DNA of 6,744 bases from positions 1 to 6,744 of the forward strand of contig JACNHM010000452.1 in the NCBI GenBank assembly GCA_014383605.1, in the 5' to 3' direction. The notes below the pieces were generated by a model. The model was not told the DNA's origin. It did no database searches and saw nothing but the letters and a program-made list of their open reading frames with translations. This DNA comes from Chloroflexota bacterium. Lineage in GTDB: Bacteria > Chloroflexota > Anaerolineae > UBA3071. Each line of letters starts with the position of its first letter. The stretch's first letter is position 1. Of the stretch, positions 1 to 6,744 are shown one piece after another. Both the position numbers and the translations under genes were made by a program.

Positions 1-2
1 GA

Positions 3-206
3 CTATCTCCTGGAACGACGCTGATTGTCGAAGAACATGACAACAAAGAAATACGACTGCGGCCGCTACCACGCCAGGAAGCACTACTGGCCAACAAAGG
101 AGGGGTCCTGGTAGTGCAGTCACAAGCAACGGGAGACATAGCTAAAGCGGTGGGACAGGAGCGAAAGACCCGGGCATCTGAACTGGTGCGGAGAACCGGG
201 CTGTGA
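3..206 (+). CDS. VapB-type antitoxin with AbrB/SpoVT fold, 5' partial
   Basis: This is the C-terminal 67 residues of a gene that begins before the window. I found it by reading the open frame that ends at the TGA at 204-206. It starts at residues PGTTLIVEE and has the end of a SpoVT/AbrB-type DNA-binding fold (a Pro-Gly turn followed by beta strands), then a charged tail ending in ELVRRTGL. In type II modules such proteins bind the toxin through the C-terminal tail and repress their own promoter through the AbrB fold. The stop overlaps the toxin start (GTGA at 203-206), the classic antitoxin-toxin coupling. The N-terminus is not visible, so the DNA-binding strand cannot be judged. The frame, the overlap and the PIN neighbour make the assignment fairly secure. 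The exact antitoxin subfamily is an inference. Confidence 0.82.
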   Translation, partial: LSPGTTLIVEEHDNKEIRLRPLPRQEALLANKGGVLVVQSQATGDIAKAVGQERKTRASELVRRTGL

Positions 207-637
207 AAGTGCTCCTGGATACCTCTGTACTCGTCGCGGCGATGGTCGAGGCACACCCGCATCATCAGGAAGCCTTGCCATGGCTTCAGCGCGCCAGACG
301 TGGGGAATTGACGGCTGTTGTCGCCTCCCACACATTGGCCGAACTGTACGCGGTGTTGACTTCCTTGCCAGTGCGACCTCGCATCTCGCCGTCTACTGCA
401 TGGCATCTCATCCAGGAGAACGTTCTCACGACAATGGAAGTGGTTGATCTGTCAACCGAGGACTACCGGGCTGTGCTGGAGCATCTGTCTACTAGCAGCA
501 TAGCAGGTGGCATAACGTATGATGCGCTGATTTCGCATGCGGCATTGAAGGCTGCTGCAGAACAACTCGTAACGTTGAACCCCGCCCACTTTCGCCGAAT
601 ACACCCAGCTCTCTCCAAACAGATCGTTTCTCCCTGA
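203..637 (+). CDS. vapC: VapC-family PIN-domain ribonuclease toxin
   Basis: A 144-residue single PIN domain, the normal size for VapC. PIN toxins are metal-dependent endoribonucleases that usually cut tRNA or rRNA and are held inactive by the cognate antitoxin. Visible acidic residues are D6 in LLDTSVLV, E47 in LAELYAVL and D107 in [10 protein letters not shown]. The usual fourth acidic position near the C-terminus appears as N126 in TLNPAHF, a variant I believe is common in one VapC subgroup. The GTG at 203 is chosen because it overlaps the antitoxin stop, has a GGAG about nine bases upstream (190-193), and places D6 where PIN domains start. It is probably made by translational coupling with the upstream antitoxin. 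Its base composition is visibly less GC-rich than the following genes, which suits an acquired module. The target RNA cannot be told from the sequence. Confidence 0.9.
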
Positions 638-644
638 GGGGCGT

Positions 645-1562
645 ATGTTCGAACTCATCTTCTTCGGCACCTCTGCTTCGGCCCCGTCGGTGCGGCGGGG
701 CCTTTCTTCGGCCATGGTGCTGCACAAGGAATATCGCTTCCTCATTGACTGCGGCGAAGGCACGCAGCGGCAACTGCTGGCCAGCGGCCTGGGCTTCCGC
801 CGCCTCGACCGCATCCTGCTCACCCACGGCCACCTGGATCACATCCTGGGCCTGGGCGGGCTGGCCTCCACCTTCGCCCGCTGGGAGATGATCCCGGAGA
901 TGAACATCTACGGCGGCGAGTGGGCGCTGCAGCGCGTGCGGGCGCTGATGCGCGTCGTCTTCGGCCCCGGCAAGCCGCCGCTGCGCATCCGCTACCAGGC
1001 CATCGAGCCGGGCGTGCTCCTTGAGGATGACGGTTTCCAGCTCATCGCCTTCCCCGTGACCCACCGCGGGCCGGGCTGCTTCGGCTACACCTTTCAGGAG
1101 AAGGCCAAACGTCCCTTCCTGGCCGAACGAGCGGAAGCGCTGGGCGTGCCCTCGGGGCCGGTGCGGAGGCGGCTGGTGCAGGGAGAGAGCGTCACCCTGG
1201 ACGACGGGCAGGTGGTGCATCCCGATGACGTGCTCGGCCCGCCGCGGGCGGGCGCCAAGCTGGTCTTCGTGGGCGACGCCGGGCGAGTGGACGACCTGGT
1301 GGACGCCGCCGGCGGGGCCGATGGACTGGTCATCGAGGCCACCTATTGTAAGGAAGAGGCAGACAAGGCGCAGCAGTTCGGCCATCTGACCGCCGCGCAG
1401 GCGGCCTGGCTGGCCCGCGAGGCGCAGGTCAAGCTGCTCATCCTGACCCACATCTCCCGCCGCTACCATCCCCGAGACACTCTGGCCGAGGCGCAACCCA
1501 TCTTCCAGAACACGATCGTGGCCGACGACTTCGACCAGTTTCGCATCGTCAGGGAAAAGTGA
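645..1562 (+). CDS. rnz: Ribonuclease Z (tRNA 3'-processing endonuclease)
   Basis: A 305-residue metallo-beta-lactamase-fold nuclease of about the usual short-form RNase Z length (around 300). RNase Z cuts tRNA precursors just after the discriminator base to remove 3' trailers. Visible features in order: N-terminal [10 protein letters not shown] strand; [12 protein letters not shown] (33-44); the zinc motif HGHLDH (H61, H63, D65, H66); H140 in [11 protein letters not shown]; a LGVPSGPV segment (166-173) typical of RNase Z; D211 in FVGDAGR; H247 in [10 protein letters not shown]; and H269 in LTHISRRY. All zinc ligands are present. The start has a GAGGGG ribosome site (636-641) that overlaps the vapC stop, and only seven bases separate the genes, so rnz may be co-transcribed with vapBC. 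No terminator is visible downstream. A related metallo-hydrolase is the only reasonable alternative. Confidence 0.92.
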
Positions 1563-1570
1563 ACAGGGCA

Positions 1571-1619
1571 CAAGAGGCAAGAAGCAAGAGGCAAGAGGCA
1601 AGAAGCAAGAGGCAAGGAG
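1571..1619 (+). repeat. Heptamer array A: seven copies of CAAGAGG-type unit
   Basis: Seven back-to-back 7-base units, either CAAGAGG or CAAGAAG with a final CAAGGAG. They start nine bases after the rnz stop, and the + strand is almost pure purine apart from one C per unit. The copies fall exactly every seven bases, so this is a tandem repeat and not chance purine bias. A single CAAGAGG also occurs at 6612-6618. No coding or terminator structure is apparent here. Confidence 0.95.
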
Positions 1620-1684
1620 CGGGAAACGAACGGTCGTGAATTGAACCCTAATCGGCCTCGCAGGTGATATTGTAGGTAGGCGCG

Positions 1685-1747
1685 CCGAACACCGAACCCC
1701 GAACGCCAAACGCCAAACGCCAAACGCCGAACTCTGAACGGCGAACG
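1685..1747 (+). repeat. Heptamer array B: nine copies of CCRAACG-type unit
   Basis: Nine consecutive 7-base units, mostly CCGAACN or CCAAACG; the central three are identical CCAAACG and the outer ones more diverged. The array ends 20 bases before the moxR start, just upstream of its ribosome site. The unit differs from array A in the same gap, which is separated from it by about 65 bases of non-repetitive sequence (1620-1684) where I see no gene. Spurious reverse-strand translations give repeated FGV/WRL-like peptides, which are not genes. Confidence 0.95.
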
Positions 1748-1767
1748 CACAAGAGAGGGAAAGACGA

Positions 1768-2721
<954 letters not shown>

Positions 2722-2744
2722 AATTACCGTGATGCATGTTCCGC

Positions 2745-2793
2745 CACGCAATACGCAACACGCATCACGCATCACGCATCACGCATCACGTGA
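2745..2793 (+). repeat. Heptamer array C: seven copies of CACGCAT-type unit
   Basis: Seven tandem 7-base units: CACGCAA, TACGCAA, four perfect CACGCAT copies, then CACGTGA. The last unit ends three bases before the ATG of the DUF58 gene, so the array occupies the place where a ribosome binding site would normally lie. It fills about two thirds of the 75-base gap between moxR and its partner gene. Confidence 0.95.
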
Positions 2794-2796
2794 CTT

Positions 2797-4077
2797 ATGC
2801 GTCGCATCTGGGGTATTCTTCTCATCCTGATCCTGTCCTGGGCCTTTGCCCTGCAGACCGGCCGGCCGCTGGCCTACAACCTGGCCTACCTGGTGACCGC
2901 GGTCATCGTCCTGTCGTACCTGTGGGCCTGGGCCAACGTCACCTGGGTACAGGTGGGCCGCTTCACCCGCGGCCGCCGCTCGCAGGTGGGAAAAATGGCC
3001 GAGGAGCAGTTCGAGGTCAGCAACCGCTCCATCCTGCCCAAGCTCTGGCTGGAGGTGCGCGATCACTCCACGCTGCCGGGGCATCTCTCCAGCCGCGTGC
3101 TCAACACCCTCGGCGGTCGGAAGCGGCAGCGCTGGATGGTACGCACCTACTGCCAGCAGCGGGGGCGCTTCCGCCTGGGCCCCATGACCCTCAGCAGCGG
3201 CGACCCCCTGGGCCTCTTCCACTTGCAACGCCACCTGCCGGCCACCTCCACCATCATCGTCTATCCAGCCACCGTGGACATCCCGGCCTTTGCGCCGTCG
3301 GTGGGCTACCTGCCCGGCGGCGAGGCCATGCGCCGCCGCACCCACTACGTCACCACCAACGTGTCCGGCGTGCGCGACTACGCCCCCGGCGACAGCTTCA
3401 ACCGCATCCACTGGCGCACCACGGCCCGCACGGGCAAGCTGATGGTCAAGGAATTCGAGCTCGACCCCACCGCCGACGTGTGGCTCTTCCTGGACATGCA
3501 CAGCGCCATGCACGTGGCCGCGCCCTGGGTTCCCGAGATGGAACGGAGAGGGCCGGCGGTGCTGTGGAAGGAGCGGGAGAAGTTGGAGCTCATCCCCAGC
3601 ACCGAGGAGTATGCGGTGACCGCGGCGGCCTCGCTGGCCAAGCACTTCCTGGCGCGGGGACGGGCGGTGGGCCTCATCGCCCACGGGCGGCGGCGGGAGG
3701 TCATCCAGGCCGACCGCGGCGAGCGTCAGATCAACAAGATCCTGGAAACGCTGGCCGTGATGGAAGCAACGGGACACATCCCCATCTCGCAGGTGGTGGC
3801 GGCGGAGGGACGGCATCTGAGCCGCAACACGACGCTCATCGTCATCACGCCTTCCACGTCCCTGGACTGGGTGGCCAGCCTGCGCGACCTGCGGCGGCGG
3901 GGCTTGCAGGGCGTGGCCGTGCTGTTGGCTGCCAACACCTTCGGCGCCGCCGATTCGTGGCAGGCGGCCCAGGCGGAGCTGATCGCCAGCGGGCTCCTGA
4001 CCTACCTGGTGCGTGAAGGGGACTCACTGGCCGCCGCGCTGAGCCAGCGAGCCGGAGCGACGAAAGCGTACGGGTAG
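2797..4077 (+). CDS. DUF58 membrane protein, MoxR partner
   Basis: A 426-residue protein with two N-terminal hydrophobic segments (about 4-19 and 29-46) followed by a large soluble part, the standard DUF58 layout. The family signature is seen as GVRDYAPGD (191-199) followed by IHWRTTARTGKLMVKEFE (204-221). After it comes a von Willebrand A-like start, VWLFLDMHSA, although the canonical DxSxS metal motif is not fully kept (DMHSA). DUF58 proteins are encoded next to MoxR ATPases and are thought to be clients or partners; the biochemical function is not established. The start at 2797 is chosen because it gives the complete first membrane segment, but there is no Shine-Dalgarno sequence since array C abuts it. 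Coupling to moxR translation, or leaderless-like initiation, is possible. A long overlapping frame in the same region is a shadow. Confidence 0.93.
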   Translation: MRRIWGILLILILSWAFALQTGRPLAYNLAYLVTAVIVLSYLWAWANVTWVQVGRFTRGRRSQVGKMAEEQFEVSNRSILPKLWLEVRDHSTLPGHLSSRVLNTLGGRKRQRWMVRTYCQQRGRFRLGPMTLSSGDPLGLFHLQRHLPATSTIIVYPATVDIPAFAPSVGYLPGGEAMRRRTHYVTTNVSGVRDYAPGDSFNRIHWRTTARTGKLMVKEFELDPTADVWLFLDMHSAMHVAAPWVPEMERRGPAVLWKEREKLELIPSTEEYAVTAAASLAKHFLARGRAVGLIAHGRRREVIQADRGERQINKILETLAVMEATGHIPISQVVAAEGRHLSRNTTLIVITPSTSLDWVASLRDLRRRGLQGVAVLLAANTFGAADSWQAAQAELIASGLLTYLVREGDSLAAALSQRAGATKAYG

Positions 4078-4082
4078 AGGAC

Positions 4083-4110
4083 AAGTCCAAAATCCAAAGC
4101 TCAAAATCCA
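4083..4110 (+). repeat. Short heptamer array D: four AAATCCA-type units
   Basis: Four 7-base units (AAGTCCA, AAATCCA, AAGCTCA, AAATCCA) starting six bases after the DUF58 stop. It is shorter and more diverged than the other arrays but keeps the seven-base register and the position at a gene end. It is AT-rich against a GC-rich background. Confidence 0.75.
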
Positions 4111-4166
4111 AAAGAACTCCCGTCCGTCGGGCTGAACGCACACAGCCGGATGCCTGCGATGTCGAG

Positions 4167-4199
4167 AGCTGCGCTTCTTCGCAGAGAGCGCAGCTTTTT
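4167..4199 (+). terminator. Rho-independent terminator after the moxR-DUF58 genes
   Basis: A perfect nine-base-pair inverted repeat, AGCTGCGCT (4167-4175) and AGCGCAGCT (4187-4195), with an 11-base loop is followed by a T run (4195-4199). It sits 90 bases after the DUF58 stop and just before the prfA promoter, so it separates the two transcription units. A smaller alternative hairpin, CTGCG (4169-4173) with CGCAG (4180-4184), uses part of the same sequence. Confidence 0.72.
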
Positions 4200-4219
4200 C
4201 GCGTGTGCGGCCAGGCCGC

Positions 4220-4248
4220 TTGCCTTTTCGCCGAGGACGTGTTACAAT
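4220..4248 (+). promoter_or_regulatory. Sigma-70-like promoter for prfA-prmC
   Basis: A TTGCCT -35 element (4220-4225) and a TACAAT -10 element (4243-4248) are separated by exactly 17 bases, matching four and five of six consensus positions. Transcription would start near 4255, about 35 bases before the prfA ATG. Its position just after the terminator and ahead of an essential gene supports it. Confidence 0.6.
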
Positions 4249-4256
4249 CTCGCTGC

Positions 4257-4273
4257 TCGTGGCTCTGCCACGA
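4257..4273 (+). promoter_or_regulatory. Hairpin at the 5' end of the prfA leader
   Basis: A perfect seven-base-pair stem with a three-base loop (TCGTGGC, TCT, GCCACGA). It would lie within the first few bases of the transcript if the predicted start near 4255 is right, and it ends six bases before the GAGGAG ribosome site (4279-4284). Hairpins at the extreme 5' end can protect messages from decay; that role here is an inference. No T run follows, so it is not a terminator. Confidence 0.55.
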
Positions 4274-4289
4274 ACGATGAGGAGTGAAG

Positions 4290-5363
4290 ATGCTAGAGAA
4301 ACTGGCGAAAATTGAGGAACGATACGAAGAACTGAACAGGCTGATGGCCGACCCCGCAGTGGTCATGGATCACGAGCGGGTGACTGAGCTGGCCCGCGAG
4401 CAAGCGGGGATCGAGAAACTGGTGCAGTCCACCCGCCGCTATCGGGCTGTGGAGACAGAACTGGCCGAGACGCAGGAACTGTTGGAAGAAGCAAGCGATC
4501 CTGAGATGGTGGAGTTGGCCCGTTCGGAAGTGGAGTTGCTGCAGCAAGAGCAGGAAGGGCTGTGGCAGAAGCTGCGGCTGATGCTGTTGCCCAAAGATCC
4601 CAACGACGAGAAGAACGTCATCGTGGAGATCCGTGCCGGCGCCGGCGGCAACGAGGCTGGGCTTTTTGCGGCTGATCTCTATCGCCTGTACGAACGCTAC
4701 GCCGAAGCGCGGCGGTGGAAAACAGACCTGCTCAGCTCACACAGCACAGGCGTCGGCGGCTTCAAGCAAGTCGTCTTCCAGGTGCAGGGTCGCGGGGCCT
4801 ACTCACGGCTGAAGTACGAGAGCGGCGTGCACCGCGTGCAGCGCGTGCCGGAGACCGAATCGCAGGGCCGCATCCACACCTCCACAGCGACGGTGGCCGT
4901 GCTGCCGGAAATGGACGAGGTAGAGGTCTCCATCAACCCCAAGGATTTGGACATCGAGGTCTACATCTCCTCGGGGCCGGGCGGTCAGCACATGCAGAAG
5001 AACGCCACCGCCGTGCGCATCACCCACCTGCCCAGCGGTTTGGTCGTGACCTGCGAGAGCGAGCGCTCACAGACGCAGAACAAGCTGCGAGCGATGGCCG
5101 TGCTGCGTTCTCGCCTCTACGAGATAGAACAGCAGCAGCAAACGGACGAACAGGACGAAGCGCGGCGGCAGCAGGTGGGCAGCGGCGAGCGCAGCGAGAA
5201 GATCCGCACCTACAACTTCCCCCAGAGCCGCGTGACCGATCACCGCATCGGCAAGAGCCTCTATCGGCTGGAGGCTGTGCTCAACGGAGACCTGGACGAG
5301 TTCATTGACGAGCTGGCAACGACAGAGCAAGCGGAGAAGTTACAGGCCATCGGTGTGGAGTAG
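4290..5363 (+). CDS. prfA: Peptide chain release factor 1 (RF1)
   Basis: RF1 recognises UAA and UAG in the ribosomal A site and triggers release of the finished protein. The 357 residues match the usual length of about 360. The N-terminal helical region is followed by the PCRF domain, containing [18 protein letters not shown]. The stop-codon recognition tripeptide is P187-E188-T189 in [10 protein letters not shown], the PxT form that marks RF1 and not RF2. The catalytic GGQ loop is [10 protein letters not shown] with G231, G232 and Q233. The C-terminus ends with the normal [21 protein letters not shown] block. ATG 4290 is preferred over GTG 4284 because GAGGAG (4279-4284) lies five bases upstream of the ATG and would overlap the GTG. 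It has its own promoter and is followed directly by prmC, whose product methylates Q233. Its TAG stop lies at the edge of a repeat array. Confidence 0.97.
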
Positions 5364-6333
5364 CAAATCAGCAAATCGGCAAATCAGCAAGTCGGCAAGC
5401 GACAAGCGGCACGCGGCAGATGTCCTGCATCATGCATCCTGTGTCTTGCATCTTGCAGGCTGCGATTCGCCCCAACTCGACGCTGAGCTGCTGCTGGCGC
5501 ACGTGCTGGGCTGGGATCGGGCACGGCTGCTGGCGCATCGCAAACGAGCGCTGACAGCAGCGGAAGGGGAGGAATTCTCGCTGCTGCTGGCCCGGCGTCA
5601 GGCCCGCGAGCCCCTGGCCTACATCCTCGGCCTCCGGGAGTTCTACGGCCTGGACTTCGCCGTTGATTGGCGGGTGCTCATTCCCCGGCCAGAGACGGAG
5701 CTGCTCGTGGAGCAGACGCTGGCCTGGGTTCAAGAGCGACTGGGCGAAGAGGGGTTAAGGGTTAGGGGTTATGGGCTACGGGAAGGCCTATCCCCTGCCC
5801 CTTCTCCCCTGACCCCTATCCCCTATCCCCTGACCCTTGCTGATATCGGCGCCGGCTCCGGCTGTGTGGCCGTGGCCCTGGCCGTCCATCTGCCGCAGGC
5901 CACCATCTACGCCCTCGATGCCTCCGCCGACGCCCTGGCGGTGGCGGCGGCGAACGCGGCCCGTCACGGCGTCGCAGAGCGGGTGCGGCTGCTGCCCGGC
6001 GACCTGCTGGAACCGCTGCCGGAGCGGGTGGACGTCATCGTCGCCAACCTGCCCTACGTGCGCCGCGACGAACTGCCCACGCTGCAGCCCGAAGTGCGGG
6101 ACTACGAGCCGCGGGCGGCGCTCGACGGCGGCCCCGATGGCCTGGCTTCGATACGGCGCTTGCTGGCCCAGGCAGCCGCCTGCCTGCGGCCGGGCGGCGT
6201 CATCTTCCTGGAGATTGGGGCAGAGCAGGGCCAGGCAGTCAACGAGTTGGCCCACCGGCACTTCCCCCAGGCCAGCGTGGACGTGCTTCCCGACTACGCC
6301 GGCCACGACCGGGTGTTGCGGGTGCAAACGTGA
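5353..6333 (+). CDS. prmC: Release factor glutamine methyltransferase PrmC with repeat-derived insertion
   Basis: PrmC uses S-adenosylmethionine to methylate the glutamine of the release-factor GGQ motif, here that of the upstream RF1. Numbering from GTG 5353, visible parts are the N-terminal helical domain ([16 protein letters not shown], then [15 protein letters not shown]), IPRPETE (110-116), SAM motif I DIGAGSG (164-170), the acidic LDASADAL strand, and N232-L233-P234-Y235. The last corresponds to the NPPY catalytic motif with Leu for the first Pro. Residues 134-161 are an extra 28-residue segment, Pro-rich in its second half and encoded by a heptamer array, between the two domains. Without it the length is near the family's 280-300. 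The start is uncertain: GTG 5353 overlaps prfA by 11 bases; ATG 5305 would overlap by 59; TTG 5446 would remove the first helix. No clear ribosome site decides it, so coupling to prfA is likely. No frameshift is seen. Confidence 0.93.
5362..5401 (+). repeat. Octamer array E1: five RGCAAATC-type units across the prfA stop
   Basis: Five 8-base units: AGCAAATC twice, GGCAAATC, AGCAAGTC, then the diverged GGCAAGCG. The first unit supplies the last two bases of the prfA TAG stop. Unlike the other arrays the period here is eight. It lies in the prmC reading frame near the chosen start and would encode a Ser/Lys/Ala/Arg-rich N-terminal tail. Confidence 0.85.
5423..5457 (+). repeat. Heptamer array E2: five TCTTGCA-type units in the prmC 5' end
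   Basis: Five 7-base units (TCCTGCA, TCATGCA, TCCTGTG, TCTTGCA twice). It begins about 20 bases after array E1 and runs up to the codons for the conserved [10 protein letters not shown] segment of PrmC. In the prmC frame it encodes [12 protein letters not shown], taking the place of the first helix of the PrmC N-terminal domain. Confidence 0.88.
5752..5835 (+). repeat. 84-bp inverted heptamer array F inside prmC
   Basis: Twelve consecutive 7-base units fill exactly 28 codons. The first five (5752-5786) are GGG-led (GGGTTAA, GGGTTAG, GGGTTAT, GGGCTAC, GGGAAGG). The next seven (5787-5835) are C-rich (CCTATCC, CCTGACC and similar). The C-rich part is roughly the reverse complement of the G-rich part: 5757-5780 against 5815-5838 agree at 19 of 24 positions, giving a long imperfect hairpin. 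In the prmC frame it has no stop, while both other + frames hit a stop within its first two units (TAA at 5756, TAG at 5763). It starts and ends on codon boundaries. Confidence 0.95.
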
Positions 6334-6371
6334 ATCGGCCGGCGAAGCCAATGGAGTGGGAGGAGTTCATC

Positions 6372-6602
6372 ATGAGCACAAGAGTGGCCGAACTAACAGT
6401 GGACGAATTCAAGCAGTTCATTGAAAGCACGGTGGAGTGGAAGCTGCTGGAGATGCTCGGCGACCCCGACGAAGGGCTGGAGTTGCGAGAAGAAATACAG
6501 GCCAGGCTGCGACGTTCACTAAAGGCAGAACGGGAAGGCGTCAAAGGCATCCCGGCCCAGGAAGTTGCCGCTGAACTTGGGTTGGAGTGGCGGCGCGTAT
6601 AG
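6372..6602 (+). CDS. Small antitoxin-like protein of unknown function
   Basis: A 76-residue acidic, helix-rich protein beginning MSTRVAELTVDEFKQFI and containing WKLLEMLGDPDEGLELREEI and a C-terminal GIPAQEVAAELGLEW. I recall short proteins with an LGDPDEGLELREE core as common in Chloroflexota and cyanobacteria, often just upstream of RelE/ParE- or PIN-type toxin genes, so an antitoxin-like role is plausible; this is from memory of the family style and not a search. ATG 6372 is chosen because GGGAGGAG (6358-6365) lies six bases upstream. The longer frame from GTG 6330 would overlap the prmC stop, and ATG 6351 lacks a good site. It begins 38 bases after prmC, probably in the same transcript. 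The next gene is not an evident toxin. Confidence 0.78.
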   Translation: MSTRVAELTVDEFKQFIESTVEWKLLEMLGDPDEGLELREEIQARLRRSLKAEREGVKGIPAQEVAAELGLEWRRV

Positions 6603-6639
6603 GCTTGAATGCAAGAGGCACACGAGAGGAGGAGAACGC

Positions 6640-6744
6640 ATGTCCACCATAACTCTGCAACCCCAATTGATGGAACAGGTGGAACAGGTAGCGGCTGAGC
6701 AGGCTGTGATGCCCAGCGAACTGCTCGAAGCCGCTCTGGGCATG
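6640..6744 (+). CDS. Small ribbon-helix-helix-like protein, 3' partial
   Basis: Only the first 35 codons lie in the window, beginning MSTITLQPQLMEQVEQVAAE and continuing into PSELLEAAL. A short beta-like strand followed by two helices joined by a turn with PSE resembles the ribbon-helix-helix DNA-binding fold of CopG/ParD/VapB-type antitoxins and small regulators. The start is clear: AGGAGG (6627-6632) lies seven bases before ATG 6640. It follows the previous small gene by 37 bases, so the two are probably co-transcribed. Whether a toxin follows cannot be seen. The family call is tentative, although the gene itself is well supported by its ribosome site. Confidence 0.65.
   Translation, partial: MSTITLQPQLMEQVEQVAAEQAVMPSELLEAALGM

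Follow-up and report, generated by a model that had tools for sequence, protein, structure and literature searches.

A gene should normally be disrupted by tandem repeats whose unit length cannot be divided by three. Rickettsia palindromic elements (RPEs) are described, in the available part of the account, as palindromic repeats of 105–146 bp which reside between genes and, in frame, within conserved protein genes, and which are translated and tolerated by one enzyme tested (PMC2229807). STRR heptamer repeats mark the genomes of cyanobacteria and Xanthomonas as abundant, genome-wide arrays of 7-bp units, over-represented in non-coding and under-represented in coding DNA. In the accessible portion of that study they are treated as one motif type per genome, with three heptanucleotides in Calothrix, and the arrays of two Xanthomonas lie mostly at the same places and vary in length and sequence (PMC4692102). 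As far as the available texts go, the heptamer repeats of Nostoc, Xanthomonas and Beggiatoaceae are located mostly outside genes (PMC4692102, PMC4679880). A literature search on titles and abstract openings, with most subscription journals outside its reach, found no report on arrays of heptamers within PrmC or within genes of Chloroflexota and, within the same scope, none that combines a heptamer build with in-frame palindromes or names PrmC as a recurrent site.

The window, that is the whole stretch of 6,744 bp analysed, derives from an uncultured Chloroflexota bacterium of the class Anaerolineae (GCA_014383605.1, contig JACNHM010000452.1, positions 1 to 6,744, forward strand). It carries, in this order, a PIN-domain gene, genes for RNase Z, a MoxR-type ATPase and a DUF58 protein, prfA, prmC and a small ORF (Table 1). 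The order is conserved from the PIN gene to prmC in the relative G026, with identities of 78, 91, 92, 91, 87 and 74%. The prmC product is assigned to the PrmC family as it exceeds the cut-off of an equivalog profile and has the PrmC_N domain, and the best Foldseek match of its model is the E. coli PrmC-RF1 complex (2b3t_A, E 3e-24). The start codon is the GTG at 5353. The database protein P0001, 97% identical to the window PrmC, begins at the corresponding codon; alternative in-frame starts are the TTG at 5305 and 5446. The NPPY catalytic motif is a defining mark of the PrmC family. In the phmmer alignment the motif reads NPPY in E. coli and NLPY in the window (6046–6057). NLPY is invariant in 33 of the 33 rows of alignment A1, window included, and is thus a form common to the relatives.

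Table 1. Genes and repeat arrays of the window
Feature	Position	Strand	Evidence
prfA (peptide chain release factor 1), upstream of prmC	4290..5363	+	TIGR00019, 507 bits (cut-off 423)
prmC (release factor N5-glutamine methyltransferase)	5353..6333	+	TIGR03534, 265.8 bits (cut-off 199.1); PrmC_N (PF17827), 81.7 bits
In-frame inverted heptamer array, PrmC interdomain linker (12 units, 28 codons)	5752..5835	+	unit split, lag-7 score, phmmer
G-rich arm (five units)	5752..5786	+	unit split
C-rich arm (seven units; lag-7 match extends to 5839)	5787..5835	+	unit split, lag-7 match
Second array in the prmC ORF, prfA-prmC junction (GCAAGCG-type, then TGCATCT-type units)	5387..5457	+	lag-7, repeat search
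8-bp array AGCAAATC, preceding the junction array	5362..5398	+	repeat search
Intergenic heptamer array CAAGAGG, RNase Z-MoxR gap	1571..1616	+	repeat search
Intergenic heptamer array CGCCGAA, RNase Z-MoxR gap, exceeding its G026 counterpart by 49 bp (7 units)	1683..1748	+	
Intergenic heptamer array CACGCAT, MoxR-DUF58 gap	2745..2790	+	repeat search
Intergenic heptamer array TCCAAAA, DUF58-prfA gap	4086..4113	+	repeat search

The array in the PrmC linker consists of twelve in-frame heptamers (84 bp) set on a codon boundary, as the original prediction stated. It is not an array of one unit type: the units are sorted into two arms, one G-rich (GGGTTAA GGGTTAG GGGTTAT GGGCTAC GGGAAGG), the other C-rich (CCTATCC CCTGCCC CTTCTCC CCTGACC CCTATCC CCTATCC CCTGACC). 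The C-rich units are roughly reverse-complementary to the G-rich ones, and the array is therefore an inverted one; the arms 5750–5782 and 5799–5831 measure 33 nt and are 76% complementary. Tandem Repeats Finder reports two separate halves (5752–5775 and 5787–5831), because the unit changes from G-rich to C-rich. The self-match score of the linker is 27 at lag 7, a value attained by 0 of 500 shuffles; between lags 4 and 12 every other lag scores only 2 to 6. The claim that only the prmC frame is open holds, stops being present in the other two plus and in all three minus frames. As read from the sequence, TAG would occur in each frame of a perfect GGGGTTA array, and unit variants (TAT, TAC) keep the prmC frame open. 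The copy number had been supposed to be necessarily a multiple of three; it is rather the net length that must be. Coding array segments in G026 have lengths such as 34, 60, 37 and 31 bp.

The E. coli PrmC/HemK structures (2b3t, 1t43) represent the same two-domain protein, and differ in having no residues at the insert site of the window. In the phmmer comparison with 2b3t_A, query residues 31–128 pair with residues 11–108, and query residues 158–321 with 109–270. The 29 query residues in between (129–157) are unpaired and no E. coli residue is skipped, which places the insert between E. coli residues 108 and 109; joining the flanks restores the E. coli spacing, as anticipated. Residues encoded by the array are 134–161 (n = 28), the edges being shifted by four to five residues relative to the phmmer gap. 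In the AlphaFold2 model, obtained with 54 sequences, the overall mean pLDDT is 87.4, and values under 50 are found at residues 138–141 and 143–152, flanked by helix 113–130 and strand 161–165. The residues encoded by the array thus form, in the model, a disordered loop of low confidence that joins two confidently predicted domains, which is the looping-out at the interdomain linker that the original prediction proposed to look for.

Relatives of the window PrmC differ in the linker. P0001, head of a 12-sequence cluster, has the same 28 linker residues. The site is empty in six relatives with 63–72% identity (P0010, P0012, P0013, P0015, P0016, P0017), and filled by other long linkers in P0002–P0009. 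Alignment thus yields both the filled and the empty state which the original prediction proposed to look for, and the relatives do not all share a non-repetitive linker of equal length. The linker DNA of the P0002–P0009 group was viewed through G026 and G062 only, and the G062 linker is similar to those of P0002–P0004 and P0006–P0008. In the linkers of these six proteins a His/Pro-rich RHRHPHP stretch differs by two-residue steps between relatives, perhaps by hexamer slippage inside an old array. The linker of G026, a shorter one, shows no signal at period 7 (score 4, attained by about half of the shuffles), so that a shared origin with the window array rests on position and on a C-rich remnant recognised by eye. 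Beside this remnant the G026 linker (L090, C39 about 13479–13635) hosts the palindrome GGGCAGGTCTCAGACCTGCCC, a repeat of a different kind. Among the genomes compared, the nearest of which are 74–78% identical in PrmC, no near-identical pair revealed a whole array inserted where the other member has its empty site sequenced.

Selection was estimated by the Nei-Gojobori method. Between the window and G062, dN/dS is 0.167 outside the linker (263 codons) and 0.93 in the linker (28 codons); between the window and G026 the values are 0.257 (263 codons) and 0.71 (21 codons), and the neighbouring genes range from 0.10 to 0.16 in the latter comparison. As dN/dS is low in the flanks and high in the linker, the enzyme is conserved and the linker drifts: purifying selection acts on the rest of prmC, somewhat less strongly than on its neighbours, and the linker is near-neutral. 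A second prmC was looked for in the relatives G062 and G026, in each of which one PrmC match was found among the candidates (at most six) scored per genome. A pseudogene is unlikely at the dN/dS of 0.17 (G062) and 0.26 (G026) found outside the linker. That prmC is decaying, or that the array is an assembly artefact, is hardly credible and was rejected: the frame is open throughout, P0001 differs from the window elsewhere yet has an identical linker, and nothing was found in favour of either.

Linker DNA could be excised from 98 of 101 PrmC loci, some genomes being counted twice. The lag-7 score is beyond 500 of 500 shuffles in seven linkers, namely the window, L089 (decayed), L100, L102, L112, L160 and L163. 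L102 is weak, as its score of 9 was attained by 0 of 500 shuffles in one run and by 3 of 500 in another. For L092 and L093 the highest score falls at period 8 (14 and 10, respectively). The repeated units are GATTTAC in L100, GAATTGA with inverted TCTCAAT in L112, and CAGTGAA with inverted TTCACTG in L163. Among 90 distinct linkers (7,971 bp), a score of 14 is reached at lag 7 by six, at lag 8 by one, and at lags 5, 10, 11 and 13 by none. Four of 149 flanking pieces (53,550 bp) attain the score at lag 7; three correspond to N-terminal arrays of the clade of the window, one is found in L007. On a tree of 54 PrmC proteins, made with the linker omitted, seven array rows were set against 44 others, with L090, L092 and L093 excluded. 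The array state needs four changes, each a gain or a loss, and the well-supported branches alone force four. The array groups are window plus G062, G283 plus G274, G345, and G263 plus G234. Heptamer arrays of other sequence fill the PrmC linker in three further separated lineages of the class.

The linker L091 (G133) features three near-copies of an 11-residue (33-bp) repeat, AATASRHRLGE, so that the PrmC site also accepts repeats of other period. No linker could be excised from L105 (G038:C1:2910132-2911007), a PrmC match with three internal TGA codons.

In a second set of 80 named loci, Chloroflexota included, linkers were excised from 62. The lag-7 score is 37 in L022 (labelled Desulfuromonadales) and 19 in L024 (labelled Deltaproteobacteria); L033 (labelled Deltaproteobacteria) scores 22 at lag 8, and L242, the linker of G403, which belongs to the class of L022 and L024, scores 27 at lag 7. 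In all four cases 0 of 500 shuffles attain the score. PrmC identity to L022 is 74% for G401, the genome of L024, and 80% for G403, over residues 2–232. L022 is made by GTGGTCA with inverted TGACCAC, L242 by AGAGTTC with AAAACTC. L024 features the left arm of L022, followed by an in-frame palindrome flanked by GGGACTGTCCC in place of the heptamer right arm. L022, L024 and L242 reside in sister genomes outside the class of the window, and two of them share one arm. These linkers differ from one another at the same site, which indicates that contents are replaced at a fixed place.

The variety of units at this site bears on a possible role of the array as RNA or DNA. Five G3 tracts on the coding strand (5752–5782) could allow G-quadruplex formation, and the RNA of 5745–5840 has a folding energy of -43.9 kcal/mol (z -2.33), a value that 4 of 200 shuffles equal or better. 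A hairpin or a quadruplex might slow the ribosome to allow domain-wise folding, or tune prmC expression. Such a role is highly improbable, as same-site arrays elsewhere are not G-rich (GATTTAC, GAATTGA, CAGTGAA), the linker evolves near-neutrally, and the RNA of the other prmC array, at the prfA junction, folds no better than shuffles (z -0.06). A stable RNA structure was accordingly rejected for the junction array. G-quadruplex function was also rejected as a general account, same-site arrays and most arrays listed for G026 not being G-rich.

DNA resembling the linker array is dispersed in G026. A search of G026 with window positions 5748–5837 gives 29 matches at E up to 1; in G062 there are two, both weak. 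The 18 G026 loci examined include four duplicates and correspond to 14 distinct places. Ten are in frame inside predicted genes, one is intergenic (L229), and the others are found at gene 3' ends (L223, L226) and in a doubtful Thr/Pro-rich ORF (L236). A Pfam family is recognised in eight of the ten genes. Matches on the scale of both arms reside in L219 (RtcA, 71 bp), L221 (no Pfam family, 82 bp) and L231 (MurD, 64 bp). The other seven in-gene places match one arm only (26–34 bp, E up to 0.025), and may therefore reflect a similar vocabulary rather than copies. Only the longer matches display both arms, and the five longest (64–82 bp, both arms, each counted once) are 72–77% identical to the window. 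The peptides encoded are of the RGYG type or the SPxPYPLTP type, as GSGDRGYGPGDWRWSPDPSPLTPM in RtcA, RGYGLGVKEKPSPPPHP in MurD, QGVKGYGSGENDLTPNPSPITPV in HutI, and SPNPYPLTP or SPIPHPLSPI in others. In RtcA, the Pfam match covers 350 residues, against a profile of 221 residues and an insert domain of about 101; the surplus is about 28 residues, as long as the array. A radical SAM fusion has its array (439–451) between TIGR03960 (to 411) and TIGR03936 (from 455), and MurD has its own inside the C-terminal domain.

The occurrence of one vocabulary in unrelated G026 genes suggests, at the level of sequence, copying between places. A ready-made mobile palindromic element, of the MITE or RPE kind, in which the heptamer make-up is incidental, would fit a dispersed family with palindromic members, found in frame in conserved genes and at a recurrent site, as well as the second palindrome, flanked by GGGACTGTCCC, in L024. 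Inverted arms are present. However, neither conserved ends nor a target-site duplication were recognised by eye in the flanks of the 14 G026 copies, the five longest matches are no more than 72–77% identical, and many heptamer families coexist in one genome. Mobility of this kind is doubtful.

The abundance of heptamer arrays was measured in a sample of 611,752 bp of the G026 genome (about 3.8 Mb), in which 524 genes were predicted by a home-made hexamer-score caller. The sample includes 88 lag-7 and 30 lag-8 arrays, 0 to 2 arrays at each of lags 4, 5, 10, 11, 13, 17 and 20, and 13 to 27 arrays, mostly coding, at lags 6, 12, 18 and 24. Of the lag-7 arrays, 35 lie wholly inside predicted genes; one coding row (C40 22808) spans a gene start and was excluded, and 34 coding arrays were analysed. 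Coding DNA has 35 arrays in about 547 kb and the rest of the sample 53 in about 64 kb; density is thus about 13 times lower in coding DNA, and genes mostly reject arrays. Many of the genes with arrays belong to known families. HypF has four, two between Pfam domains (residues 192–212 and 414–426) and two inside (518–528 and 683–697). MiaB has one between UPF0004 and the radical SAM domain (119–149), and another inside a domain. Arrays are located between the E3-binding and catalytic domains of a lipoyl acyltransferase (216–226), and between the two parts of a thioesterase-phosphopantetheinyl transferase fusion (268–276). Others were found in QueA, in a MutS2-type protein, in an NRPS module and in glycosyltransferases, several inside a domain. 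Domain borders are therefore not respected by every array.

Most coding arrays (26 of 34) can be read without a stop in any frame of their own strand, as expected since 7 and 3 share no factor. Twenty-four are also open on the other strand, and 19 of these are read the more hydrophilic way (p 0.007). Inverted partners (score 12 or more) accompany 20 of the 88 arrays, versus 7.2% in the control, and are rarer in coding arrays (4/35) than elsewhere (16/53). Palindromy concerns a minority, and was rejected as a rule for all arrays. Two family-2 glycosyltransferases of G026 (L214 17555-18583, L217 12700-13671) carry different heptamer arrays at residues 84–107 and 85–107, perhaps a second recurrent site. 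Of 120 genomes of the class, 11 contain (ATCCGCA)3, built from one of the G026 heptamers, with 34 occurrences in G026 and 63 in G072; its backwards control was found in none of the listed genome rows. A heavy load of this motif is a feature of a few genomes, not of the majority.

The window itself includes six lag-7 segments, which make five arrays. The original prediction did not mention the junction array (5387–5457) or the four intergenic arrays. If translation begins at 5353, the junction array encodes an N-terminal extension of PrmC and its first helix; the window residues matching it form helix 21–34 of the model, with high confidence. At the same junction G026 has GCATCCT GCATCGT GCATCTT GCATCCT GCATCTT, that is (GCATCNT)5, which encodes ILHRASCILHLAG, a peptide with a seven-residue period. 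Relatives lacking the linker insert have similar residues at the junction helix; judged from the sequences, this array may thus have grown from the codons of the helix.

Changes of arrays at fixed places were followed by comparing relatives. In the RNase Z-MoxR gap, the CGCCGAA array is longer in the window by exactly seven units and its flanks are identical to those of G026, whereas CAAGAGG differs by gaps of 19 and 12, not unit-exact. The right arms of the sister prmC linkers L112 and L160 differ by 21 bp, or three units; L115 and L111, relatives of both, have no left-arm expansion. In the gaps before MoxR, DUF58, prfA and prmC, arrays or short remnants are recognised by eye in both the window and G026, but in G026 only the prfA-prmC array exceeds the score threshold. 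These data recall microsatellite growth in place, in which each array would have arisen at its own site through slippage on a short repeat that the gene happened to contain, and none would have moved. Such growth accounts for the unit-exact changes of 49 and 21 bp, and for the presence of arrays or remnants in the same gaps of the two genomes. It agrees also with the resemblance of the units of L115, L111, L160 and L112 to native codons, the right arm of L112 repeating TTCTCAA, which occurs once in L160 (TTCTCAATTCTGGACGTG). Independent slippage does not predict the G- and C-rich vocabulary shared by unrelated parts of G026, at five places over 64–82 bp. Pure growth in place is a real possibility, short of a probable one.

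The account which we consider probable is that of a dispersed population of degenerate heptamer arrays, one of which settled in the PrmC linker, was tolerated, and then changed by whole heptamers. That a repeat element became a protein linker, as originally proposed, is supported by the in-frame array, by relatives in which the site is either empty or filled, by the selection found in the flanks and by the modelled loop. The source would be the dispersed, degenerate and sometimes palindromic heptamer arrays of this Anaerolineae lineage, which may spread by copying. Settling in the interdomain linker probably predates the split of the window, G062 and G026. The insert would have been retained for its multiple-of-three length, the lack of an in-frame stop, and a disordered loop leaving both domains intact, with a presumably neutral effect on the enzyme. 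Length would later change in place by whole heptamers, plausibly through slippage, and contents would turn over fast. Inverted arms might arise by snap-back template switching, a process proposed for other coding palindromes in the available part of PMC6649704.

The lineage tolerates heptamer arrays in conserved enzymes, including MurD, MiaB, QueA and PrmC. Filled by different arrays in several lineages, the PrmC linker represents a natural, repeated experiment on the birth of disordered linkers, and comparison of strains could catch such a birth in progress. Annotation is affected as well: arrays shift start codons and inflate protein lengths, and RGYG, SPxPYPLTP, QSAIRNP and HHASRIT peptides create false similarities between unrelated proteins. 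A wider view, in which bacteria in general make protein linkers out of palindromic heptamer arrays and the PrmC linker is a docking site reused in at least two phyla, is tentative and somewhat unlikely. In this view palindromic arrays, being the same in both orientations, and encoding, if perfect, one cyclic heptapeptide whatever the frame, could insert at nearly any point of a gene, would persist where domains meet, and would then be lengthened and replaced.

The comparison with known systems is made within the limits of the published texts available. Like RPEs, matches to the palindromic array of the window reside both in conserved genes and between genes, as seen at the 14 G026 places. They differ from RPEs, as these are described there, in being built from heptamers, in varying widely in sequence within one genome, and in changing length by whole units. 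Like STRRs, arrays of the window and G026 are degenerate 7-bp repeats, many per genome, with a preference for non-coding DNA. In contrast to STRRs, as covered by the accessible text, many motifs coexist, and 35 of the 88 G026 arrays are found in predicted genes, though at lower density. The quadruplex unit GGGNATC or GGGGA(C/T)T of Xanthomonas and Nostoc is not matched by the window units (GGGTTAN, CCTATCC/CCTGACC), and most arrays listed for G026 are also not of the GGGNATC type. The TAACTGA direct repeats of Beggiatoaceae are likewise heptamer arrays. As far as they are described in the part of the report available, they feature one fixed heptamer, lie mostly just before start codons and, when in ORFs, mostly concern protein ends or hypothetical proteins; the arrays described here are found also within conserved enzymes, at internal linkers, and a single gene may have several. 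In its behaviour the window array resembles an RPE, in its construction an STRR, and arrays of this kind return at a single site of a single enzyme.
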